35,274 nt of DNA, taken from the IMG/VR virus record IMGVR_UViG_3300042451_000749, positions 1 to 35,274 of that record, one strand, 5' to 3'. Below the pieces are notes generated by a model. It made no database searches. It was not told where the DNA came from and saw nothing but the letters and a program-made list of their open reading frames with translations. The position numbers were made by a program, and so were the translations under genes. The DNA comes from a virus. Position 1 is the first letter of the stretch; the number at the start of each line of letters is the position of its first letter. This document shows, piece by piece, positions 1 through 32,389 of the stretch.

Positions 1-111
1 TTCACTAATTGGAACAAAAACAGGTCCATTTCCTTCTGGTGATTTTCGGTTTGATGTACCATACACAAAAATATCAGTACAACTTTCTCCTATAACTAAT
101 ACTCTATTCAT
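1..111 (-). CDS. RfaE1/HldE-type sugar kinase (PfkB family), N-terminal fragment
   Basis: Only the first 37 codons are present; the gene runs off the left edge. The start is the ATG whose complement is at 109-111, overlapping the preceding gene by 8 nt. The N-terminus begins with a hydrophobic strand and Gly-Glu (VLVIGES), then an Asp at residue 13, FVYG, and a SPEG segment followed by PVFVP. This layout is that of D-glycero-beta-D-manno-heptose-7-phosphate kinases (first domain of HldE), whose N-terminus reads roughly VLVVGD-x4-D-x-YxYG-x-SPEAPVPV. By family, it would phosphorylate heptose 7-phosphate at C1 in the cytoplasm. It lies directly after an RfaE2-type nucleotidyltransferase and a heptosyltransferase-like gene, which fits ADP-heptose supply. 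The catalytic GxGD region lies outside the window, so another PfkB sugar kinase cannot be excluded. Confidence 0.72.
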   Translation of the reverse strand, partial: MNRVLVIGESCTDIFVYGTSNRKSPEGNGPVFVPISE

Positions 112-490
112 TATCTAAAAATTTTGTAGTACTAAGACCATCTATTCTATTAAAGAATTTTATTTCTTTTGCATGATTACCTCCGATAATAGGTTTATAC
201 ATATAATCATCACCAATTACAAATACATCAGGTTTGTAAGTTTCTAAATGGGTTCGTAAAGAATCATCACTATCAAACACAACAATTTTATCTACATCTC
301 GTATTTGCATCAAATTAAATACTCTCTGTTCTTCTGTATGGAAAGGTCTATCATCTCCCTTCATTTGTCTGATTCTTTCATCGGAATCAATACCTATCAC
401 TAAATTTCCTAAAGATTTTGCATAATCTATCAACTTAAAATGGCCATAATGTAGAACATCAAAACATCCATTTATCCAAACTTTTTTCAT
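104..490 (-). CDS. RfaE2-type sugar-phosphate nucleotidyltransferase (HldE C-terminal domain homologue)
   Basis: A 128-aa protein the size of a single cytidylyltransferase-like domain. It opens with NGCFDVLHYGHFKL, containing the HxGH nucleotide-binding motif (His14, His17), then a basic RQMKGDDRP loop around residue 44 and a C-terminal GLSTTKF segment around 118-124, all typical of RfaE2/TagD-type enzymes. RfaE2 transfers AMP from ATP to heptose 1-phosphate, giving ADP-heptose. Its start codon overlaps the stop of the upstream gene in a TAATG arrangement, so the two are probably translationally coupled, and its end overlaps the next kinase-like gene by 8 nt. In HldE the kinase precedes the transferase; here the order is reversed, so this is two genes and not a frameshifted HldE. 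A glycerol-3-phosphate or other sugar-phosphate substrate is the alternative. Confidence 0.85.
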   Translation of the reverse strand: MKKVWINGCFDVLHYGHFKLIDYAKSLGNLVIGIDSDERIRQMKGDDRPFHTEEQRVFNLMQIRDVDKIVVFDSDDSLRTHLETYKPDVFVIGDDYMYKPIIGGNHAKEIKFFNRIDGLSTTKFLDNE

Positions 491-1644
491 TATAAAAACT
501 TTTCTAACTCTTTGATTACCATTTCGGATGTAATACTTTTAGTACATTCAAATTGTCTTTCAGTACCTTTGTGGTCAGGACACCAATTCCAATCTCCTGC
601 ATTTAATCTTAATCTATTAAAACATCCTTCGCATTTTCCTTTTGGTGCTGTGATTCTTATACAATCTTGCATTTCTGCCCAATCGTATGAAAATCCACTT
701 ACTAAAACGGTAGGAGTATCTAATGCCCAACTCAACCAACTTAATCCGCTTCCAATACCTATAAATGCTTTAGATTTTTTTAATTCATCCATAACTAATT
801 CAATAGGACCGTTTGGATGTTTAATTATTCCAGTTGGTAATTTATTACCCATATAGTCATCATTCTCTTTAGATATCAATCTAACCGTATAACCTCTATC
901 ATTTAACCAATTTACAACATCCTGCCAACCAGTGGGGTTATTCCAAAATTTAGATTGAGCAGTTCCAAATACACCAATACAAATTTGATTTATTTTTTCT
1001 AATGATGGATTTTTTCTTTTTAGTTTAGGTTTTATTTCTTTGTATTCTAATCCTAAAATATCAGAACACATTTTTTGAAGTGTAACCGTTTTAGGGTCTA
1101 TTGGATTTTTAAAAAGATTTATAGAATCATCATCATTATAAAATAAACCTATACAATACATTGCATATAAATCAATTGCAGTATCGCCTGGTTTTATGAA
1201 TTCTATATTAGGATATTCGTTTGAAAAAAAATCATTCATAAAAGTTGATGCAACTAATTTACAATTATGTTTTTTTCTAAATTCTTCTAAATATGGAAAC
1301 CAAGCTAACGTATCACCCAAAGCTCTGGAATCCAAAGCTACATAAATTTTTTTATCGTTTGCATTATAATCATATTCTGCCCATTTCTTACCATTTTCGT
1401 ATATTAGAATTTTCCAATTTACAAAATACTCTATATTACATTTACACCAACAATTGTTTCCAATAGTTGAATTGAATAAAACTTTATTAGTTTCTTTATC
1501 AATAAATTCGACGAGATATTCCGCTTTTTTTTGTCCTTTAATTTCAACAAAAGGACCTTTTACAAAATGATAATGAACTTTATTTTCTATATCAATTTTA
1601 TTATTTTTATTTTTTACCAAATTATCGTATATCATTAACTCCAA
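490..1644 (-). CDS. TibC/Aah-like autotransporter O-heptosyltransferase homologue
   Basis: A 384-aa GT-B protein that I recognise as resembling the bacterial autotransporter heptosyltransferase (BAHT) family along its whole length. Landmarks: an N-terminal barrel-like part with HFVKGPFVEI (26-35); ALDSRALGDTLAWFPYLEEF (103-122); DPKTVTLQK followed by SDILGL (183-199); GTAQSKFWNNPTGWQ (227-241); IGIGSGLSWLSWAL (295-308); and a C-terminal four-cysteine cluster, C338-x2-C341-x13-C355-x11-C367, matching the iron-binding site of TibC. From memory, TibC uses Asp110 and Lys230; Asp111 and Lys232 here fit those positions. The family attaches heptose from ADP-D-glycero-D-manno-heptose to serines of beta-helical adhesins. 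It overlaps the upstream gene by 10 nt and the downstream one by 1 nt. A CWCKC cluster at 65-69 is unusual. The acceptor is inferred, not shown. Confidence 0.85.
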   Translation of the reverse strand: MELMIYDNLVKNKNNKIDIENKVHYHFVKGPFVEIKGQKKAEYLVEFIDKETNKVLFNSTIGNNCWCKCNIEYFVNWKILIYENGKKWAEYDYNANDKKIYVALDSRALGDTLAWFPYLEEFRKKHNCKLVASTFMNDFFSNEYPNIEFIKPGDTAIDLYAMYCIGLFYNDDDSINLFKNPIDPKTVTLQKMCSDILGLEYKEIKPKLKRKNPSLEKINQICIGVFGTAQSKFWNNPTGWQDVVNWLNDRGYTVRLISKENDDYMGNKLPTGIIKHPNGPIELVMDELKKSKAFIGIGSGLSWLSWALDTPTVLVSGFSYDWAEMQDCIRITAPKGKCEGCFNRLRLNAGDWNWCPDHKGTERQFECTKSITSEMVIKELEKFL

Positions 1645-3818
1645 GTTTTAACTGTTAAATCTAATAAGGAAAATCCTTCCGCCTGTTTTGAATACACCTT
1701 GTTAGTTGTATATCTATTTTTGGGGTGGTTATAAAACACATGATTAAACCAAAGGTCACCAACATCCCATCCACAATCTTTTATTCTATCTAACCACCAA
1801 CTTTTTGTTCGGTTTGGAATTAGATAGGCATGTGCTAAATCTTGATTATATGCGGTTTTAGAAAAATAATCATCTATTTTGTCTTTACCTCGTGATGGAT
1901 TATCTGCTAATGAGATATAATATACATCATCTAATTCAGATATAAAACATGCTTTATGTACTATATCAACAAATTCTTCTAATCCAGTATAGATAAATGC
2001 ATCTGCTTCGAATATTAAAGTATAATCAAAATTTTCAGTATCAATTGTTTCCAACGCACCTCTATGTGCTAAATAACATCCATAGTGCCTACCTGTCATC
2101 CAACCTAAACCAGCACCAGGATATAATTCACCAGGTTTATTATCTTTACTTATATGTTCTGGTCTTCTACAATTTTCAGCAGGTGCTAATCCTTCATATA
2201 CTTCATTAACAATTGGTTGATACACAATTCCGTATTTTTCTAATTGTTTAATAGATTGAATACTAACCCTCTCTCGCATATCATCGGGTCTGGTTAATAG
2301 ATGTTTTATTTGTATTCTTGGTTTCTTACGAATGAATGAACGAAATCCTTTTTGAACTTGTCCGTAAAAGAATTCATTTGCCGCTTTAGTAACACCAGGA
2401 AAAACAGGAATATCGAAATCATCTCCGGTTATATAACCACCTGGTTTTACTTTGTTATACCATATTTTTAAATCATCGGTTACGGATTCATAAGTGTGGC
2501 CGGCATCTATCATTATAAAATCAATACTACTATTTGCAAATTGATTAGCCGCATTTTTCGATGTATCTTTAATTATTTCAAACGTATTATAATTGTCTGA
2601 TAATACTGTGTTATCTATAAATTCATAGAATATATCTCCATTGAATGCTCCAACTATATTTTGATGTAATTCTTCATCATCAGTACCTTTCCAAGTATCG
2701 ATAGTTGTAAAATTTATTTTTTTATTAGATTCTTTAATTTTAGTTGCTAAATAATTTGTAGATTTACCAAACCAAGCACCCAACTCAACTACATTTGAAC
2801 CTTCAGGAACTTTTTCAACAACTTCATTATATAAATCAGTATATGAAAACCATCCAGGTATTTCATTAAATTCTGGTTGAAGTTTTTCTAAAATAATTCT
2901 TTTAGTTAATTTTAAATCATCATCAATATAAGTTACTAAATTATTACTATCGTATGTATCTAAATAAGTGTGTAATTTTCTGAATATAGATGGGAGTTTA
3001 TAACTCAATGCTTCTTTAACTGATAATGGATTTAATTCTAATTTAGAACTAAAATAAAACATATCACATGCTGCATAGAAAGTATCTACATCATTTCTCT
3101 CACCCCATACAACACAATTATCAGGTTTATGTTGCATAAGTGGTTTCCAATAATCTTCATAGTTCATAGCCTGATTTCCTACAAAGTGGAATTTTATTTT
3201 ATACTTTTCTAACTGTCTAGCTATTTGGAATATTTCTTGTTGATTTTTACCAGGTGAAAACAATCCAACATTAAGAACATGCTTCCAATCCAATTCAAGT
3301 CCTAATTGAGTTTTGGCATTTTCTTTATCAAACTGATATTCTTCTATTGGGTATTCCCATACATCTAAATCAACATGTAAATTAGCTTCCTCAAATTTTT
3401 GTTTACTCCACTCCGATACTAAAATATATTTATCTGCATGGTATCGTATTTCTTCCGGATTTGTAAATGAACCATGCGTTGTTGCGATTATGAAATAATT
3501 TCTTTCATCTACAAATATACTATCTAATACATTTGTGGGTAAATCAAACTCAGGTATTTCCTGAAAGTGGATAATATCAGGATTAAATCCTTTTATTATA
3601 TCTAATATTTTAGATTTATCACTATCCAATGTATGAATCGGTACTAATGATTTGATTCTATTTTTTTGAACTACATACGCATTCCCACCACTATTATTTA
3701 TTTCAATAACTTCAATTTCAAAATCATTGATAAAGTGTTTTATTTGCTTGTATGTGTATTGCGGTTGTCCACCCGTAGAAAGGTGTGGGCAGACATAAAG
3801 TAACTTTTTCTTTGCCAT
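1635..3818 (-). CDS. Three-domain sugar-modification enzyme: GT4 glycosyltransferase, SAM methyltransferase, GT25-like glycosyltransferase
   Basis: A 727-aa cytoplasmic protein with three visible parts. Residues 1-310 look like a GT-B fold family-4 glycosyltransferase: a Gly-rich N-terminal loop (STGGQPQ, 14-20), NVGLFSPGKN (183-192) and an E-x7-E pair (Glu261, Glu269) for the nucleotide-sugar. Residues 325-500 are a class I methyltransferase of the Methyltransf_24 kind: VVELGAWFGKS (343-353), Asp374 in TIDTW, IDAGHTYE (437-444), KPGGYITGDDF (458-468). Residues 570-727 resemble family-25 transferases: GRHYGCYLAHRGAL (576-589) and FEAD (603-606) in place of the usual EDD. It is the first gene of the sugar operon, directly behind a host-type promoter, and overlaps the heptosyltransferase-like gene by 10 nt. 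I infer that it extends or methylates the glycan. The domain calls are firm; the exact sugars are unknown. Confidence 0.8.
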   Translation of the reverse strand: MAKKKLLYVCPHLSTGGQPQYTYKQIKHFINDFEIEVIEINNSGGNAYVVQKNRIKSLVPIHTLDSDKSKILDIIKGFNPDIIHFQEIPEFDLPTNVLDSIFVDERNYFIIATTHGSFTNPEEIRYHADKYILVSEWSKQKFEEANLHVDLDVWEYPIEEYQFDKENAKTQLGLELDWKHVLNVGLFSPGKNQQEIFQIARQLEKYKIKFHFVGNQAMNYEDYWKPLMQHKPDNCVVWGERNDVDTFYAACDMFYFSSKLELNPLSVKEALSYKLPSIFRKLHTYLDTYDSNNLVTYIDDDLKLTKRIILEKLQPEFNEIPGWFSYTDLYNEVVEKVPEGSNVVELGAWFGKSTNYLATKIKESNKKINFTTIDTWKGTDDEELHQNIVGAFNGDIFYEFIDNTVLSDNYNTFEIIKDTSKNAANQFANSSIDFIMIDAGHTYESVTDDLKIWYNKVKPGGYITGDDFDIPVFPGVTKAANEFFYGQVQKGFRSFIRKKPRIQIKHLLTRPDDMRERVSIQSIKQLEKYGIVYQPIVNEVYEGLAPAENCRRPEHISKDNKPGELYPGAGLGWMTGRHYGCYLAHRGALETIDTENFDYTLIFEADAFIYTGLEEFVDIVHKACFISELDDVYYISLADNPSRGKDKIDDYFSKTAYNQDLAHAYLIPNRTKSWWLDRIKDCGWDVGDLWFNHVFYNHPKNRYTTNKVYSKQAEGFSLLDLTVKTWS

Positions 3819-3825
3819 ATTGTAA

Positions 3826-3857
3826 CAAATATACGAATTTATTTTTAGATTACCAAA
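3826..3857 (-). promoter_or_regulatory. Bacteroidetes-type promoter of the sugar-modification operon
   Basis: On the minus strand the sequence reads TTTG (3857-3854), a 20-nt spacer, then TATATTTG (3833-3826). This matches the Bacteroidetes housekeeping consensus, TTTG near -33 and TAnnTTTG near -7, at full identity for the fixed bases. The start codon of the 727-aa gene is 7 nt further on, so the leader would be very short. The 13-nt core TTCGTATATTTGT is repeated exactly upstream of the primase gene. Confidence 0.65.
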
Positions 3858-3863
3858 TTTATT

Positions 3864-4109
3864 TTAGAAAATCACAGTACCCTCAACTAAATCAATTTCT
3901 CCACTTGGATATTGTTTTTCCAAATCAGATAGTAATCCATTTAATTCTTTGTTTGTACTTTCAAATTCCGTTTCAACTACCGATAATAATACATTCATTT
4001 GTTTTATATCTAAATGTAATTGCCCAGCATTTATAATCAGTTCGTTTTTTCTAGTGTTAAGTTCTCTTAGTTTTTCTACCAATGAAACTTCTAATTTTTC
4101 AGTTGTCAT
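3864..4109 (-). CDS. Small coiled-coil protein downstream of the tail fibre
   Basis: An 81-aa hydrophilic protein with no signal peptide or membrane segment. Residues 5-65 are heptad-like and strongly helical (VSLVEKLRELNTRKNEL and following), and the last 16 residues (YPSGEIDLVEGTVIF) look like a short beta-hairpin tail. I do not recognise a named family. It lies between the giant tail fibre gene (33-nt gap) and the sugar operon (45-nt gap), with its own ATATTTAT box 17 nt upstream of the start codon, so it is probably made late with virion proteins. A fibre-associated or fibre-assembly role is suggested only by position. Alternatives include a general small virion or scaffold component. Confidence 0.6.
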   Translation of the reverse strand: MTTEKLEVSLVEKLRELNTRKNELIINAGQLHLDIKQMNVLLSVVETEFESTNKELNGLLSDLEKQYPSGEIDLVEGTVIF

Positions 4110-4142: not shown

Positions 4143-7100
4143 TTATAAAGAACCACTAATATAGGCCTCTAATGCTTCAACTTTATCCATTAATATTTGA
4201 ACGGTCTTAGTTAGTGGTACAATTATTTTATCATACGCTAATGAATCCACCGTAACAGCACTTCCACTAACACCATAAGAAACATACCTTCTCATTTCAG
4301 GATCTTCATCTAACCATTCTGCAATAAATCCACCTTGCTTACCAATATATTCTTTTGCGTTTGGCATTGGGTACATATCATCATAACTTTCTTCACCATT
4401 GGTTTCATAGGTTGTAGTATTGGCTATTTTTAATGGAGTATATAAAACAGGTCTTATTTTTCTAATACTCTCATACGCTGAATTTGGATACTCCTCTATA
4501 TTTGTTTTTACCCTTATAGTAGATGAGTCAAATATTAATTCTCTACCACCAATTCCAAATTTAGTTGTACCAGGTCTTAATCTTGCTGTTGCTACGTTAG
4601 CGGCCTGCGATGGCCAGTTAGCTCCCATAAGTACAGAGTTATTGCCAATTGTACCAAATCTAATTCCACCGGTTGTATTTTCAGTTCCAATATAACCACC
4701 ATTTACGATAAAGTTATTATTTGCACCAGATAATAGAATATCACCATCCAATACTTGAATTGCTCTACCGCTTGCATTCGTATTTGTAATTCTTAATCCG
4801 GGACCAGTATTACTAGTCTTTATATCAATCATTGGGTCCGATGTTGTTCTTTGGACCTTTACATAGTTATCTGCATTAGCAACAACTAATATACCATCTT
4901 GACCAATTTCAGTTTGTTGTAATGAACGATTAAATGTTTGAGATTGTGGATTTAAACTTCCTTGGAATTCAATTAGACCATCGACAATATATCCTTCAAC
5001 AACCACTTTTATATGCATATAATATGTACCAGCTTCTGCAAAATAAATAGAACTTTGAAACCCATCATTATAATTAACATACGCCTCATATCCTGCAGAA
5101 TACACACTACCGTTTGCTAATACAATACTATTTAGTTGTGTTCCTGATAAATCATCAGTTGTCCAAATTTCACCAATAACTTCTACACTTATATAACCAT
5201 CGAAATTAAAATCCGATTCTACTGTTAAACTATTATTAGAACCCCAATCTAAATTACCAGTTGTTGTGTATAATCCTTCAGCTGAAACGGAAAATCCTGA
5301 ATTATCAAATAACTGACCAATATTAGTATAGTTGTAATACCCCGCTCCCAATTGCTCTCCGGTAAAACCAAAACTAGATATTGGGTCTATTGTTACACCA
5401 GTACCTCCACTACCAGGAACAGAAATGGTACTCTGTTTAATAATAACTCGTTGTGTACCACTTTCACTTATAGATATAACTTTTGAATTTGCGTTTAATA
5501 TAATAGATGCATCTGAATCTTGGAAGTTACCTTCAACCACTCTCCAGTTACCTATTTCAGATACTAAACTATTATCAGTTTGTATTTTACCTTTAATACT
5601 TAAGGTGTTGTTATCCCAATTTATCGAAGGAAGTCCGGATGCTATTGTATTTCCAAAACGGAATTGTCCATCATTTGCCATATAGAATCCTGAAGTTCCA
5701 GCATCCAATCCAGTTGCACCGGATGAACGTATGAATCCACCCACAACTACGTTTCCAGCAAAGTTTCCGGTAGCCGCTGATATATCTCCTCTGAAAAATG
5801 CGTTACCGGCAGCATTAACCGAAAATCCTTGAGTTCTGATTGTACTACTTGCTAAATCTATAAACGTACCAGCATCAGAGAAATTACCAGCAGTATATGC
5901 GTAGTTGGTAGATGTAATAAGGTTCGTAGCAACTCGTGATGTTACAATAGCACCTGGCCCAATATATGTTATTGCATCATTTCCAGCATTAATCTTGCTG
6001 ATTGCAGCCATAGCTCCTAATGAACCACTAAACACAGTCAATGCAGTTTGTGCATTTGTTCCTGATGTTGCGATAGATGAAGTTCCAGCATTAGATGCAG
6101 CAGTATTTGCAAAATTTTGAGTTGCCGCATCACCGCCGGTTACTGTAATATCTCCTGCAATTTGTAAACTACTTCCATTCCATTTAAGGTATCTATTACC
6201 CGCGCCGTTTACAATTGAAAATCTTCCAGTAGTACCACCAGACCCAATTGGTTGTTCATATATACCTAAGAATATACCAGGTCTTTCGTAACCAATTACT
6301 GCTCCACCAGGATTTAAAGTTGTACCACTTGTTCCAGAAGTACCAATAGTTGCATTTTGTCCGATAGCAATATACGGGTCAGTTCTACCTCCAGCAATTA
6401 CAATATTTGCAAATGCACCAGTTCCATTTTTAGTACCAACATTAATTGTATTCTTAACATAAGATTCTTCAAATATTGCAATCTTAGCAGCAACGAAGAA
6501 TTCCTCTTGTCCTAAAAATTCCCAAAAATCAGGTTGTGTATCGGGTTGTTTTGCTCCAATTAAATTAAATCCAACAGGTGGAGAAGCACCAACATAGAAA
6601 GTAGAAGTTGATGGGTTTACATAAGTATTTGGTCCAGAACCACTAACCGATGCGTAATAGTTTGTAGCTCCTGGAGTTGCGTTGTAAATAACCGCATCTC
6701 TACGATTATTTGTAGTTTCTACTTGTCCTATATAATCAGTTTGATTACTCCACTCACCTCTCATAACAATACCAGGACCAACTGCTCCCTCAAATTGTAC
6801 TGAAAATGATTGTGTTTTAAATAAAGTAGTTCCTGGTCTTGATATACTTCCAGATACATACTCACAGTCTATTTGATATACAATTTCTCCGGTTAAATTA
6901 GTTTCGGGATAGTCCCAAGAAGTTATAGCCGGCATTGTTGCAGGATTTCCAGCCAATCTTGCGTTTGGTGTATTATATGGGGCGGGTAATCCTAAGTGAC
7001 TAGAATACGAAAGTATTGAAACTACATATTGTTCTTTATACCCATATTCATCATACGCATCCCACTGTCCACCGGTAAAACCACCTGGTTTATGGGTAAG

Positions 7101-10100
7101 TTGGGTATTACCCCTAGATGCTTTTATTATATTACCAGTTCCATTAAATTCTAATTCACCGGATACTCTATATACCACCGATGAATTTTCGTTCTGCATA
7201 TACGCATTGTATGGTGCAGGTGGTTCAAATTGTACCGATAATGATTGTGTTACAAATTGTGTTTGTCTATTATTTTCAAAATCTACTTTATAAATAATTT
7301 CTGCAGACTGTGAAACTGCCCACTTTCTCCAATCAGATAAATTTGGAGCTGCTGCAGGTGTTGTTGTAAATCTACTTATACTTTGTGTTACCCAATTTGA
7401 TTTAGAATGTATGGATGCGGATGAAAATCCTAAATTGCCAATTAAGTTACCCAAATAATCATAATCATCTGGGAATATAGGTGTTGGATATTGTCCTGTT
7501 GTTACATTTTGTAATTCAGTAGTGCCCTTAAATGTATTTAAAGTTATAGCCGTTTTACTTAAGTTTTTTGTCCAAAGGTCTCCTGTTATTGCTGCGTTTT
7601 CATTTGTACCAACTACTTTATATGCATCGGCTCCCGCTTTTACACCAGCAATTGTTAATTGACCTTCTGCTCTAACATCGGATGCTAATAAACTACCTAT
7701 TGATGGAGCTTTACCATCAGTAACTTTTACTTTCCATGTTTTATTTTGTCCAGGTCCAACTGCATCGGATGCATCAATTGATATAAATGCTTCTTTTGAA
7801 CCAGGAGATGTCTCTGCAATAGGACCATCGTAATAAGTTTCAGTACCGTCTTCTTCAATAAAGAAAAAGTAAAAATTAGGTCCAACTTGTCCCGCGCCAC
7901 CAGAAGAACCAGTTACATTAAATGCAGTTGCAGTTAAATCTATATTACCATCAGGAGATGTTTTATAGCCATCTCTATCGAAGTTAACTGTATATGTTGA
8001 TGCTTTAAAATCAACAGAACGAGCATTTGGTACTGATACATTTTTTGTAAATGTTTGAGTACGAGTAAAAATAGATGATGTATATTCATGCCCACTTCCT
8101 AGCGCAAATGGATATACTTGAATTGTATATAACGCACTAGCGGAAACGTATGGAAAATCAAATCTATTATAATTTATTGTTGCAGTACTTAGTGAAGAAG
8201 ATGATAATGAACCAGTTCTTATGTTCCAAATTGAACCACCTCTAGTTTCAATTGAATTAATTCTCCAAGTACCAGGTAATATAGATTGAGTTGTAAATCT
8301 TAAAAAGTCCTCCCCTTCTTTAACTTGTATAGTAGTATTTGCCGGTGCATATCCAACCGGAGTAATAAACCCAACTTCATCAGCTGTTAGTGTTGTGTTT
8401 GGCGGAGATATTAATATTTGAATTGGCGGTGGCCCTTCTAATACCTTTGTATATGGTTGAACTACACTTGCAGTATAAACCGATGATGTATAATATGGAC
8501 GTATTTCCAATGGATATGTAATACTACCACTTAAATTAATAAACCCAGAGGATGCACTAATAATTAACGATTCGGTATATGCATTATCAAAATAAACTAA
8601 ACCACCGGTTACATTTGATGCAGTTATAGATGATTGTGCGATGTGGAATGTACCAGGTTTTCTACTACCGGTAAACGCCAAATATCTACTACCTTGTTTT
8701 AATTTAATATCGGTAATAGATGGTTTAAAATCATTAACAACACCTCTCGAATTTGCAGCCAATGTTACCGCCGCTGGGTTTACTTCAAATACAATACTCT
8801 CATCTCCAGGCTTACCTTCGGGTACTATTGTAAATAATTTATCAACCGATACCGATGCCGAAGTCCAAGGTTCAGTATAAACAAAGCTTGTTATTAATTG
8901 CTTGCTTTGAGATACTGCCAATCCCAATGGGTAAGTTGCTGCATTTCCTCTAGATGGTATTATATTACCAAATTCATCGTATGCTATAACACTAATATCA
9001 GGATTACAACTATGAGTTATATAATTTACCCAATATTCAGGTACAAAATCTACATTGATTGACATCGATGGATATACTTCAATAGAACAACTTATTGGTT
9101 CATCAAATCTACCTCTACGGAAAAATGATGCTGTCGCGGATGAGAATACAGGTTTGAATTTTGTTTCTGTTCTTGGATTAATTGTAAATGTATCAGCATC
9201 ATATAATACAACACCAGCATCTAAACCATCCTGTAAATCAGTTAGAGTTAATACAGTCAATACCGATGCGGATGGGGTTGGTGAACCAGATGGTATTAGA
9301 TATAATGTTAATTGCCCTTCAATAGAATCTCTATTAAAAATTGCGTTATAATTTAATTGACCAGAACCAGTTGTACCAGGTTGTAACCCTTTTATAAATC
9401 CACTTGCACTTGCATCATTAAGTGTAAGATATTTTGAGCCGGATTGTACGTGAATTTGAGGTGCTGACCTTCCTGCCGGCAACCCAGCTCTAAGTTTAAT
9501 TTCGTTTACACCATCGATACGAATTGCCTGAACTTCTAATGAACCAGACGGGTCAGAGTTTCTTATAAATTGACCATTGTAAGGTCTTAATTCATAATTT
9601 ACACCACCCTTACCATCAATTACCCTTGTTATTATAATAGAATCTTCAACGCCCTCACATTCGGCAGTGTATTCTATATATTGTACAACAACTTCTTCTA
9701 AACCGGGGTCTCTAGAACCTGTAAAGTTTTGTACTGTCAATCTCACCGTATCTTTATCGATATCTAACAATTTACCAGGAAATTGCCAATGAGTAAACGG
9801 TGGTGATACTAAAGAACTACTCAATGGAGTTGTAGCCCAATACGAAGTATCATACATTGATGATGATAATTCAGTATTAAAAAAATCAAATGAACGGGAT
9901 GTAAATGTAACAGATCCTGTTAGGAAATTCTTAATAACATCTATAAAAATTGTAGTTGGATTTACAGGATTTCCATTACCGGAACCAGAATCAAATTGGA
10001 AATACAAAGATGATGGTACTAATTCTAAACTTTTATTAATACGATTTAAATTACCACCATCGAATGTTTTTGTTTCAGTTACAATTACCGGTATGTAATT

Positions 10101-11681
10101 ATTATTAATATCATAAAATTGAAATAAAAACTCAAATGTTTCTTTTGGCAATGTTCTTGGTATAGGTTGTATAAAAGAAATTTCATTTGGTGAAAATGAT
10201 GTTTCTTGCGATGCTCTCAAACTAATATCAGCTAAATGCCAACCAGCACCCTTTACTTCAACATATAATCTTGCATTCGAAAATTCTTGTGATTTAAAAT
10301 TAGCAGTAATGCTCGATTTTTGTAAAACACTATTATCAGATGTTACTTTTAATATTTCTTGAGATACACCAGATGATACACCATTATTTATTCTAGACCC
10401 ACTAATGTAGAACTTAATATAATTTCCTGGAGATAAGTTTTGTAAAAGTTTTACATTAAAATCTAAAGTGTATTCAGAATTTGTTCTTATATCAATTGAT
10501 TTTGATGTAAAGAATTGATGTGCATTTGCAGAGCTACCATTTAATCTAACCGAGTTGTATAGGAATGTTTGATTAAACTGCGTTGTTAATTCATTAGATG
10601 ATGTTATCCAATAATTTTTAAAATTAAACGGGTCAAATATACCGTAAAATTCTTCATTTTTTGTAGTTGATTCTAAATCTTTTAAAATCTCATTGGATTC
10701 TAATTGTATCTCCTGTATAAACTGATAATCCGCTAAATCTGATTGAGACCTTCTATATATTTTTACTCTGGCCACATCACCAACAAATGTATCTAAATCC
10801 GATATTAATATTTTTGCAAATGAACCTGTTAATGCGGTTTTAAGATTATCCAACCCCTCTACATAATTAAAAGATGCAGTATATCGTTGGTTTGAAAAAT
10901 CTTGAACAATACCATTTATAGTATATGGTGTTTTTACCGTTAAATCGGTTTTACTAATAACATCATCGGCTAAAGTAAATAACCCCAAATCCGTAAGTTC
11001 TATGGTAGTACCAACAACCGAACCAGTCCAAGCTCCACCATCGTTTATTTGTAGTAAATAATTTGTTGGTAAAGAATATTCGGATAATAGTTGTCCTTGC
11101 TCTGGAACTTGCGCAAAGCCATCCACTCTACCCTTTTGTGTAATAGGTGTTACTATATTTGAAAATATAGGTTTTACTATTTCAGTTATGGATACTTCAG
11201 GTCTACGATAAAATCTTACTTTATCTTCGTTTGAAAGTAATTTGTTTATTTGAAATTCCTTTTCCCATTTAACATTGTAAACATTTCTCCATTGTTCAGG
11301 TATATCTTGTACTATACCATTATCATCTACAAATGTTTTTAATTCACCTAATATAGTAATCTTAGCTTGTCCTATTGGAGTATCTTCATAAACATATACA
11401 GCAATCAATTTAGAAACACCTTCATAATATTCGGGAACACCATTACCAGGTTCATAATAAACAGGGTTTCCGTTTACATCTAATATTTCAATCTTAATTT
11501 CAGTAGTTTCCTTTAGATGTTGAGAACCTTCAATTAGGAAACCATTTTTACCACCAGTAAATGTATCTTTGAACTCGGTTACTCTAAAATATGTAGAATT
11601 TGGAGTTGTATCATTTATATATGTCTGAAATGTTGTTAAGTTTTGTGTTAAACTTTCCGGAAATTTCTTTATTATCGCCAT
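4143..11681 (-). CDS. Giant tail fibre with C-terminal S74 intramolecular chaperone
   Basis: A 2512-aa protein, the largest in the window. The N-terminus (about 1-170, with TGGKNGFLIEGS and YEPGNGVPEYYEG) looks like a virion-attachment domain. Residues of about 680-1250 contain several related beta-sandwich-like units sharing an I-x-V/L-x-x-G-x-x-x-L-x-F/L core. Residues of about 1740-2080 are rich in Gly, Ser, Thr and Ala and resemble a beta-solenoid shaft (TIGTSGTSGT, GDITVTGG). The last 129 residues are a peptidase S74 (endosialidase chaperone) domain: Ser2387-x-x-Arg2390-x-Lys2392 is the self-cleavage motif, followed by KIRPVLYTP, GGFIAEWLDEDPE and a terminal coiled coil. By family, the fibre trimerises and then cuts off this end before the serine. 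A candidate late box lies 22 nt upstream. The Ser/Thr-rich shaft is the best candidate acceptor for the downstream heptosyltransferase-like enzyme; that link is inference. Confidence 0.88.
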   Translation of the reverse strand: MAIIKKFPESLTQNLTTFQTYINDTTPNSTYFRVTEFKDTFTGGKNGFLIEGSQHLKETTEIKIEILDVNGNPVYYEPGNGVPEYYEGVSKLIAVYVYEDTPIGQAKITILGELKTFVDDNGIVQDIPEQWRNVYNVKWEKEFQINKLLSNEDKVRFYRRPEVSITEIVKPIFSNIVTPITQKGRVDGFAQVPEQGQLLSEYSLPTNYLLQINDGGAWTGSVVGTTIELTDLGLFTLADDVISKTDLTVKTPYTINGIVQDFSNQRYTASFNYVEGLDNLKTALTGSFAKILISDLDTFVGDVARVKIYRRSQSDLADYQFIQEIQLESNEILKDLESTTKNEEFYGIFDPFNFKNYWITSSNELTTQFNQTFLYNSVRLNGSSANAHQFFTSKSIDIRTNSEYTLDFNVKLLQNLSPGNYIKFYISGSRINNGVSSGVSQEILKVTSDNSVLQKSSITANFKSQEFSNARLYVEVKGAGWHLADISLRASQETSFSPNEISFIQPIPRTLPKETFEFLFQFYDINNNYIPVIVTETKTFDGGNLNRINKSLELVPSSLYFQFDSGSGNGNPVNPTTIFIDVIKNFLTGSVTFTSRSFDFFNTELSSSMYDTSYWATTPLSSSLVSPPFTHWQFPGKLLDIDKDTVRLTVQNFTGSRDPGLEEVVVQYIEYTAECEGVEDSIIITRVIDGKGGVNYELRPYNGQFIRNSDPSGSLEVQAIRIDGVNEIKLRAGLPAGRSAPQIHVQSGSKYLTLNDASASGFIKGLQPGTTGSGQLNYNAIFNRDSIEGQLTLYLIPSGSPTPSASVLTVLTLTDLQDGLDAGVVLYDADTFTINPRTETKFKPVFSSATASFFRRGRFDEPISCSIEVYPSMSINVDFVPEYWVNYITHSCNPDISVIAYDEFGNIIPSRGNAATYPLGLAVSQSKQLITSFVYTEPWTSASVSVDKLFTIVPEGKPGDESIVFEVNPAAVTLAANSRGVVNDFKPSITDIKLKQGSRYLAFTGSRKPGTFHIAQSSITASNVTGGLVYFDNAYTESLIISASSGFINLSGSITYPLEIRPYYTSSVYTASVVQPYTKVLEGPPPIQILISPPNTTLTADEVGFITPVGYAPANTTIQVKEGEDFLRFTTQSILPGTWRINSIETRGGSIWNIRTGSLSSSSLSTATINYNRFDFPYVSASALYTIQVYPFALGSGHEYTSSIFTRTQTFTKNVSVPNARSVDFKASTYTVNFDRDGYKTSPDGNIDLTATAFNVTGSSGGAGQVGPNFYFFFIEEDGTETYYDGPIAETSPGSKEAFISIDASDAVGPGQNKTWKVKVTDGKAPSIGSLLASDVRAEGQLTIAGVKAGADAYKVVGTNENAAITGDLWTKNLSKTAITLNTFKGTTELQNVTTGQYPTPIFPDDYDYLGNLIGNLGFSSASIHSKSNWVTQSISRFTTTPAAAPNLSDWRKWAVSQSAEIIYKVDFENNRQTQFVTQSLSVQFEPPAPYNAYMQNENSSVVYRVSGELEFNGTGNIIKASRGNTQLTHKPGGFTGGQWDAYDEYGYKEQYVVSILSYSSHLGLPAPYNTPNARLAGNPATMPAITSWDYPETNLTGEIVYQIDCEYVSGSISRPGTTLFKTQSFSVQFEGAVGPGIVMRGEWSNQTDYIGQVETTNNRRDAVIYNATPGATNYYASVSGSGPNTYVNPSTSTFYVGASPPVGFNLIGAKQPDTQPDFWEFLGQEEFFVAAKIAIFEESYVKNTINVGTKNGTGAFANIVIAGGRTDPYIAIGQNATIGTSGTSGTTLNPGGAVIGYERPGIFLGIYEQPIGSGGTTGRFSIVNGAGNRYLKWNGSSLQIAGDITVTGGDAATQNFANTAASNAGTSSIATSGTNAQTALTVFSGSLGAMAAISKINAGNDAITYIGPGAIVTSRVATNLITSTNYAYTAGNFSDAGTFIDLASSTIRTQGFSVNAAGNAFFRGDISAATGNFAGNVVVGGFIRSSGATGLDAGTSGFYMANDGQFRFGNTIASGLPSINWDNNTLSIKGKIQTDNSLVSEIGNWRVVEGNFQDSDASIILNANSKVISISESGTQRVIIKQSTISVPGSGGTGVTIDPISSFGFTGEQLGAGYYNYTNIGQLFDNSGFSVSAEGLYTTTGNLDWGSNNSLTVESDFNFDGYISVEVIGEIWTTDDLSGTQLNSIVLANGSVYSAGYEAYVNYNDGFQSSIYFAEAGTYYMHIKVVVEGYIVDGLIEFQGSLNPQSQTFNRSLQQTEIGQDGILVVANADNYVKVQRTTSDPMIDIKTSNTGPGLRITNTNASGRAIQVLDGDILLSGANNNFIVNGGYIGTENTTGGIRFGTIGNNSVLMGANWPSQAANVATARLRPGTTKFGIGGRELIFDSSTIRVKTNIEEYPNSAYESIRKIRPVLYTPLKIANTTTYETNGEESYDDMYPMPNAKEYIGKQGGFIAEWLDEDPEMRRYVSYGVSGSAVTVDSLAYDKIIVPLTKTVQILMDKVEALEAYISGSL

Positions 11682-31444: not shown

Positions 31445-32389
31445 TTATTCATAGATAGATACGTGCATAGGGTCAAAGTTTCTTAACCAAGTCATACCTT
31501 TTGATTTAAAAATTTCTGCAACTTTTAAAAATCCCCTATCAAATTCATCAAAATCTCGCTTCTTAACCTTACCAACATAAATACCATCATCACCAAATTT
31601 ATACCCATACGGATATTTTATAGTATTCATATCTATCGCAGTTCCCCAAGCATGATTGGATAAACGGGTACCTCCAGTAACATTTCGTACAGCAAGCCCA
31701 CCTGCACAATTTTCAATATATTTTTGCAAACCTTGTTTTTTTATTTCATTAATTGCGGGCTGAACTATTGCTGCAAGGTCTTTATGTACTGTTATTTTTT
31801 TATCACCACTTTTTGTTGGAAATAATATTTGTGTACAATTTTGTTTTATGTACGCTGGATTTTGTTTATACCAAGTTCTAGACCCCTCCGTACTTGATAC
31901 TTCAAAATTTGGAGAAGGTCCTTCACCTAAAGCTGGCCAAAGTCCATTTCCAACTTTTTTATATAAAGCAGCATCACCTCCACCTCCACCTCCACCTCCA
32001 CCAGTACGAGTACCACCTGTATTAGTATCGTTTGTTAATTCTTTTTGTAGTTGTATAACTTCTGTTGGACTTTTTGGTGTACCAACCTCATCTTCATCAT
32101 TAAATTCGGATTCATAAATTTGGGCAGTCTTTGGATATTCTACAAGTATATCAGTTTGTATCGCCTTTGCTTCTTCCTCATCATCAGGTAAAAATTCATC
32201 TACCGATGGTTTCGCAAGTTGGACAGTATAACCAGACCAATTAGATATACCAGGACCTGGCGTATTTAATGGTGGGTATGTAGATACTGTATTTACAATA
32301 CCACTAACCGTATTTAGATGTTGTTGAGCATATCGTATAAACTCATCAATCAGTAGCTTATGATTTTTGGTTGGTTGTATAGCTCCCAT
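31445..32389 (-). CDS. M15-type cell-wall peptidase on a virion protein (L-Ala-D-Glu peptidase-like, 314 aa)
   Basis: The C-terminal half (about 195-314) is a zinc peptidase domain of the M15C kind: RLSNHAWGTAIDMN (242-255) supplies His246 and Asp253, and FDPMHVSIY (305-313) supplies Asp306 and His309. Such enzymes cut peptidoglycan cross-links. The N-terminal part (1-90) is a virion-type helical domain followed by an acidic linker with EFNDEDEVGTPK (95-106) and a Gly run (129-138) encoded by a repeated ACCTCC tract. With the neighbouring 424-aa gene it places two different wall peptidases in the baseplate block, in the place where T4 has the gp5 lysozyme. The role would be local wall digestion during infection. 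It could instead act in lysis, but no holin lies nearby. It begins 1 nt after the 424-aa gene ends. Confidence 0.8.
   Translation of the reverse strand: MGAIQPTKNHKLLIDEFIRYAQQHLNTVSGIVNTVSTYPPLNTPGPGISNWSGYTVQLAKPSVDEFLPDDEEEAKAIQTDILVEYPKTAQIYESEFNDEDEVGTPKSPTEVIQLQKELTNDTNTGGTRTGGGGGGGGGDAALYKKVGNGLWPALGEGPSPNFEVSSTEGSRTWYKQNPAYIKQNCTQILFPTKSGDKKITVHKDLAAIVQPAINEIKKQGLQKYIENCAGGLAVRNVTGGTRLSNHAWGTAIDMNTIKYPYGYKFGDDGIYVGKVKKRDFDEFDRGFLKVAEIFKSKGMTWLRNFDPMHVSIYE
31976..32002. repeat. ACCTCC tandem repeat encoding a poly-Gly linker
   Basis: The plus strand has 4.5 perfect copies of ACCTCC, read on the minus strand as GGT/GGA glycine codons. It separates the virion part from the peptidase domain. 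Perfect short repeats slip during replication, so linker length may vary between isolates. Confidence 0.8.
32085..32105 (-). repeat. Linker repeat copy 1 (FNDEDEVG-encoding), shared with the adjacent peptidase gene
   Basis: A 21-nt stretch identical to 33067-33087, within a longer region of near identity. It encodes the Asp/Glu-rich linker that precedes the peptidase part. The two genes otherwise have different sequences. Confidence 0.75.

Follow-up and report, generated by a model that had tools for sequence, protein, structure and literature searches.

Co-occurrence of TibC-like glycosyltransferases and collagen-like repeats across many unrelated phages suggests that large lake-water phages may sugar-coat their own fibres

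What a phage might do with a protein O-heptosyltransferase is the question raised by one end of a viral DNA of 35,274 bases (the entire IMG/VR record IMGVR_UViG_3300042451_000749, referred to here as the window). A sequence-only reading of this DNA had described a tightly overlapping operon there, encoding a TibC/Aah-like O-heptosyltransferase, an RfaE2-type nucleotidyltransferase, the start of an RfaE1-type kinase, and a fusion of GT4, methyltransferase, and GT25 domains, and it had proposed that the phage glycosylates its own neighboring fibre. We located all four open reading frames (ORFs) where that reading had placed them, on the minus strand within window positions 1-3818, with neighboring genes overlapping by one or a few bases (TAATG, TAATG, and ATGAATAG). 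Co-occurrence of TibC genes and collagen-like repeats across many unrelated phages suggests that large lake-water phages may coat their own fibres with sugars, and we lean toward the explanation that the locus is a phage-encoded O-glycosylation cassette acting on the phage's own fibres, in which a BAHT enzyme would start glycans on collagen-like Ser/Thr triplets and the fusion would extend and methylate them.

The enzyme that would start these glycans is a well-supported member of the BAHT/TibC family. In profile searches it scored 285.3 bits against TIGR04414 (curated cut-off 200), and the solved TibC structure 4RAP aligned to it with an E value of 4e-56; the Pfam model TibC_1st, at 20.2 bits, stayed under its cut-off of 27. 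An AlphaFold (AF2) model with a pLDDT of 90.8 matched most TibC chains with a TM score of 0.84-0.85 (0.84 over 375 columns) and contains an all-beta N-terminal domain (strands 19-89), which corresponds to the N-terminal beta-barrel of TibC and had been expected of a BAHT enzyme. The active site is conserved. TibC is reported to have a catalytic base, donor-binding Thr, Lys, and Trp residues, and four Cys of an iron finger that is required for ring assembly and protein-substrate recognition (PMC4358343); Asp110 (the base), Thr226, Lys230, and Trp305 are kept as D108, T225, K229, and W300, and all four Cys are kept as C335, C338, C352, and C364. We rejected identity as a lipopolysaccharide (LPS) heptosyltransferase of the WaaC/WaaF type, for which the profile score was 25.8 bits against a cut-off of 185 and the TM score to WaaC, WaaF, and other GT9 structures was 0.55 or less; profile, sequence, and fold all agree on TibC as the closest match. 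The family assignment made by the sequence-only reading thus held, while its length of 384 amino acids corresponds to an upstream TTG and translation probably begins with the ATG at 1635, giving 381.

The evidence for an acceptor comes from what accompanies the enzyme in other genomes. Near TibC, distant phage loci have collagen-like ORFs built of G-T-S and G-S-S triplets. In a position test on 46 TibC groups formed at 60% identity, with a permutation null, a collagen-like Ser/Thr-rich ORF lay within two genes of TibC in 16 groups (null 8.5, p 0.001) and within three genes in 21 (null 12.0, 0 of 2000 permutations). A second test used records picked by their terminase alone: the 12 without TibC all had 0 repeat hits, and the single TibC-positive record had 39. 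In the large TibC records, repeat hits mostly number 42 to 1,932. In the third test, large contigs were picked by the (Gly-Ser/Thr-Ser/Thr)n repeat alone (n = 28), and TibC was present in 15, one of them just below cut-off, including 13 of the 18 contigs of 60 kb or more. By comparison, a random set of 20 records picked by an arbitrary 14-mer, none with more than 5 repeat hits, included no TibC (0/20). Comparing the repeat-picked contigs (15/28) with the repeat-free random and terminase-picked records (0/32) gave a Fisher p of 7e-7; all these counts are approximate, as fragments hide genes and a duplicate phage is likely. General richness in glycosyltransferases was rejected as the cause of the link, GT4 genes being at background in the repeat-positive, TibC-negative contigs (3/13, versus 4/20 random and 3/11 terminase-picked records, 7/31 together). 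The link spans viral TibC diversity down to about 35-40% identity. This co-occurrence suggests a specific enzyme-acceptor pair and, on statistical grounds, points to the GTS (Gly-Thr-Ser) triplet as the acceptor.

TibC homologues in Methylobacter, Methylomicrobium, Polaromonas, and a gammaproteobacterial metagenome-assembled genome (MAG) adjoin GTS/GSS-repeat proteins that are secreted- or lipoprotein-like in appearance, which suggests a bacterial version of the same pair. A BAHT protein scored over cut-off in only 2 of 369 class-mates of Methylobacter. We rejected a single phage clade apart from the cellular enzymes, as the tree shows mixing; the E. coli TibC branch in this tree is very long.

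Which phage protein would carry the sugars? The sequence-only reading had pointed to serines of beta-rich adhesins, and specifically to the giant fibre said to lie directly before the operon. The 2512-amino-acid fibre is indeed there, with an 81-amino-acid gene in between. It gave no Pfam match, for AIDA-type repeats or otherwise, and an AIDA-type beta-helix is an unlikely acceptor; GTS-repeat proteins are associated with TibC instead, and the likely acceptor is a Gly-Ser/Thr-Ser/Thr collagen-like segment. Among 26 distinct loops compared between this fibre and those of relatives, 22 contain at least two G-[STA]-[STA] triplets, and two genomes of the window's family (G010 and G011) each encode two giant proteins with long G-[ST]-[ST] runs. 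A phage fibre is the likely target; the sugars may be carried by the fibre next to the cassette, by the distant collagen-like proteins, or by both.

The arrangement of the cassette is far beyond chance, since the order fibre, fusion, TibC is conserved in about 100 freshwater relatives. A first scan, over viral contigs, yielded 126 relatives and 80 loci, and further viral scans each gave at least 582-586 confirmed relatives. The stable order in the family is fibre, small coiled-coil protein, fusion, TibC, nucleotidyltransferase and kinase where these occur, second coiled-coil protein, NadR-like protein, terminase, and portal. In Pfam searches, the GT4 and methyltransferase domains of the fusion were detected in 33 of 33 relatives and the GT25-like C-terminal domain in 20 of 33; BshA-type GT4 and MeT1 are among the fold neighbors of the fusion, as is, with a weak match, the collagen galactosyltransferase COLGALT1. 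Matches to the window's fusion numbered 213 among the ORFs of 285 loci and were often on the same polypeptide as TibC, and distant phages frequently carry the TibC domain in one protein with GT4 and/or methyltransferase domains. The named relatives are Microcystis phage Mel-JY01 (PP395634) and huge uncultured phages. The distant Mel-JY01 shares the order SbcC, fibre, TibC, NadR, terminase, and its 1226-amino-acid protein annotated as an FkbM methyltransferase (L082:4750-8430) is a GT4...TibC fusion with the TibC domain at its end.

From these observations we infer a donor sugar, an acceptor, an order of steps, and a benefit. The TibC-type enzyme would attach the first sugar, in all likelihood ADP-activated D,D-heptose, to Ser/Thr in fibre proteins of the phage, with collagen-like Gly-Ser/Thr-Ser/Thr segments as the main sites. 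The fusion would then lengthen the glycan with its GT4 and GT25-like domains and cap it with its methyltransferase domain. Where present, the kinase and nucleotidyltransferase would boost the supply of ADP-heptose from host heptose-7-phosphate, and phages without these activation genes would draw on host ADP-heptose. The modification might benefit the phage by making long fibres stiffer or more resistant to proteases, or by altering adhesion.

The supply of the donor can be followed to the left of TibC only in relatives, because the window is the whole record. A neighbor contig (L002) whose TibC is 100% identical to the window's holds the complete kinase that the sequence-only reading had expected on that flank (246 amino acids, L002:11525-12265); its best PDB match is HldA (4e84) and its nearest profile is HldE1. 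Between this kinase and the NadR-like gene of L002 there is no further sugar gene, gmhB being judged here by gene order and not by profile search. For the window's nucleotidyltransferase TIGR02199 is the best model, phrog_7878 gave 131 bits, and a TagD-type model only 59.8 bits. Among 101 loci with enough flank, both activation genes are present in 42, the nucleotidyltransferase alone in 15, neither in 44, and the kinase alone in 0.

Several results weigh against the proposed cassette function. The adenine-contacting Arg286 of TibC is Val in the window protein (Arg in 7 of 29 aligned rows); the TIGR02199 score of the nucleotidyltransferase, 98.8 bits, is under the equivalog cut-off of 181.5; and the L002 kinase, a shorter protein, reaches 96.5 bits with TIGR02198 against an equivalog cut-off of 345. 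An ADP-heptose donor is therefore unproven, and heptose is a plausible donor sugar weakened by these features; as Arg286 is a donor-specificity residue, its loss lowers the claim to ADP and not BAHT membership. A gmhA gene was found in none of 12 phage records checked. Given this absence and the 44 of 101 loci with neither activation gene, a self-contained phage heptose pathway is unsupported, and we rejected it. The enzyme identities behind the proposed activation-and-attachment set stood, and the activation genes are optional. The idea that the phage glycosylates its own fibre gained indirect support from the co-occurrence, while the adjacent fibre itself carries only a short GTSGTSG loop at a conserved site and the giant GTS genes of the family are separated from TibC by tens of kb, a distance of about 40 kb in G010. 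Two TibC-positive records, W04 (636 kb) and G009 (133 kb, possibly partial), have 0 and 1 repeat hits; 13 of the 28 repeat-positive contigs, many of them short, show no TibC; and the records are not fully independent, G393 and G398 apparently being the same phage.

Some of the same results would fit virion fibres that are glycosylated with a first sugar other than heptose or on an acceptor other than GTS, the repeats merely marking a TibC-prone type of phage. The change of Arg286 to Val and of Pro300 to Gly, the sub-cut-off activation enzymes, and the two TibC-positive records with zero or one hit speak for this possibility; we consider it unlikely, as the link spans diverse phage TibC and some bacteria and general GT4 genes show no link to the repeats. 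A rather unlikely alternative is that the cassette modifies a host surface protein during infection (an autotransporter-like or GTS-repeat adhesin or a lipoprotein), blocking superinfection or changing adhesion. Cellular TibC homologues act on or adjoin such host surface proteins (PMC4358343; the bacterial loci here), and papers on aquatic phages usually interpret phage glycosyltransferases as host-surface modifiers (PMC7029224). The cassette, however, lies in the late structural region, where it has the fibre as a neighbor and terminase and portal downstream, and TibC tracks GTS repeats of the phage's own genome, which a host target would not predict.

We regard as very improbable a role of the cassette in altering LPS of the host or another glycan, such as has been suggested for other glycosyltransferases of phages. 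GT4 and GT25 domains are known in LPS synthesis, and rfaE-like genes of pelagimyophages were interpreted as LPS-modifying (PMC7029224), but the heptosyltransferase here has the fold of TibC, not of WaaC/WaaF, and it keeps the iron finger by which TibC recognizes its protein substrate. Own-fibre glycosylation remains the explanation we favor. On its wider form, in which phage BAHTs and the related bacterial clade would glycosylate collagen-like Gly-Ser/Thr-Ser/Thr repeats and many large aquatic phages would bear heptosylated, methylated collagen fibres, we are evenly divided.

How does such a cassette compare with known systems? It resembles TibC/Aah BAHT enzymes (TIGR04414; PMC4358343) in profile, fold, active-site residues, N-terminal beta domain, and iron-finger Cys; it differs in being encoded in a structural region, coupled or fused to GT4, methyltransferase, and GT25-like domains, in its likely acceptors, which are GTS collagen-like proteins and not AIDA repeats, and in not keeping Arg286 and Pro300. 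Both halves of the bifunctional kinase/adenylyltransferase HldE (RfaE) are present as neighboring short genes; unlike HldE, the phage version is split in two, has a shorter kinase, falls under the equivalog cut-offs, and is optional. Bacillus BclA and the GT25 enzyme COLGALT represent O-glycosylation of collagen-like G-X-Y repeats, and a GT25-type domain also occurs in the fusion; those systems use a different first enzyme and hydroxylysine or GPT-triplet chemistry, not GTS. We know of no tie between BclA/COLGALT-type glycosylation and heptose or phages. In mycobacteriophages, glycosyltransferases are reported to modify capsid and tail proteins of the phage itself (Freeman et al. 2023, PMC10527164, as cited in PMC12619734); the citation places the glycans on capsid and tail-tube subunits and itself mentions no BAHT or collagen-like acceptor.

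BAHT enzymes and virion glycosylation are each already known, and as far as we found their combination, the coupling to GT4-methyltransferase-GT25, and the collagen-like acceptor are undescribed; our literature search, which left out subscription papers and preprints, found no paper describing phage BAHT/GTS-fibre glycosylation. Giant collagen-like fibres are a striking feature of large aquatic phages, and modification of the Ser/Thr-rich segments in these fibres is likewise, as far as found, undescribed. If correct, the proposal would account for part of the phage glycosyltransferases commonly filed as DNA- or LPS-modifying, would add a second substrate class for the TibC family and a previously unrecognized type of virion glycosylation, and would offer possible enzymes for glycosylating simple GTS repeat peptides.

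The features discussed are collected in Table 1. The minus strand of the window also encodes T4-like genes (baseplate wedge, SbcC/D-like nuclease, and primase).

Table 1. Positions of the cassette, its candidate acceptors, and related bacterial proteins
Feature	Position	Strand	Basis
HldE1/RfaE1-like heptose-7-phosphate kinase (putative), first 37 amino acids (MNRVLVIGESCTDIFVYG...), cut by record end	window 1-111	minus	read from DNA
HldE2/RfaE2-like nucleotidyltransferase (putative), 128 amino acids	window 104-490	minus	TIGR02199, phrog_7878
BAHT/TibC-family protein O-heptosyltransferase (predicted), 381 amino acids	window 490-1635	minus	TIGR04414, 4RAP, AlphaFold model, residues
GT4 - methyltransferase (Methyltransf_24) - GT25-like fusion, 727 amino acids	window 1635-3818	minus	Pfam, fold neighbors
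81-amino-acid protein between fibre and fusion	window 3864-4109	minus	ORF; coiled-coil protein of 81-103 amino acids there in relatives
2512-amino-acid beta-rich fibre, candidate acceptor	window 4143-11681	minus	conserved directly upstream of cassette in relatives
Codons for GTSGTSGTT, fibre amino acids 1780-1788, conserved-site Gly-Thr-Ser loop	window 6318-6344	minus	comparison of loops in relatives
Bacterial GTS/GSS-repeat proteins beside TibC	L144:6935-7798, L146:6917-7798, L148:9133-9441, L149:9199-9900, L154:9291-9917		

The neighborhood of the cassette showed further features. In relatives, small coiled-coil proteins of one family flank it on both sides, ∼81-103 amino acids long upstream of the fusion, the place taken in the window by the 81-amino-acid gene, and ∼110-142 amino acids long downstream (e.g., L013:12312-12695); they are perhaps fibre assembly helpers. 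Always downstream of the cassette is a protein of highly variable length with an N-terminal NadR-like nucleotidyltransferase domain (∼1000 amino acids at L013:12731-15763). The terminases of Mel-JY01 and Flavobacterium phage immuto are about equally close to the freshwater family, so that the stated Microcystis host of Mel-JY01 may be uncertain. A Bacteroidetes MAG contig (L147) encodes a TibC fusion of 924 amino acids that has a close relative in a phage fusion (L129); the contig is probably phage sequence binned into the MAG. Directly before the fusion gene, at window 3826-3857 on the minus strand, is a match to the Bacteroidota-type promoter TTTG-N20-TATATTTG; we rejected the pattern as a clue to the host and make no host claim, because it is not enriched in the window (5 versus 2.8 expected). 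Between tail genes, at window 31445-32389, lies an endolysin-like protein with a Peptidase_M15_4 domain.
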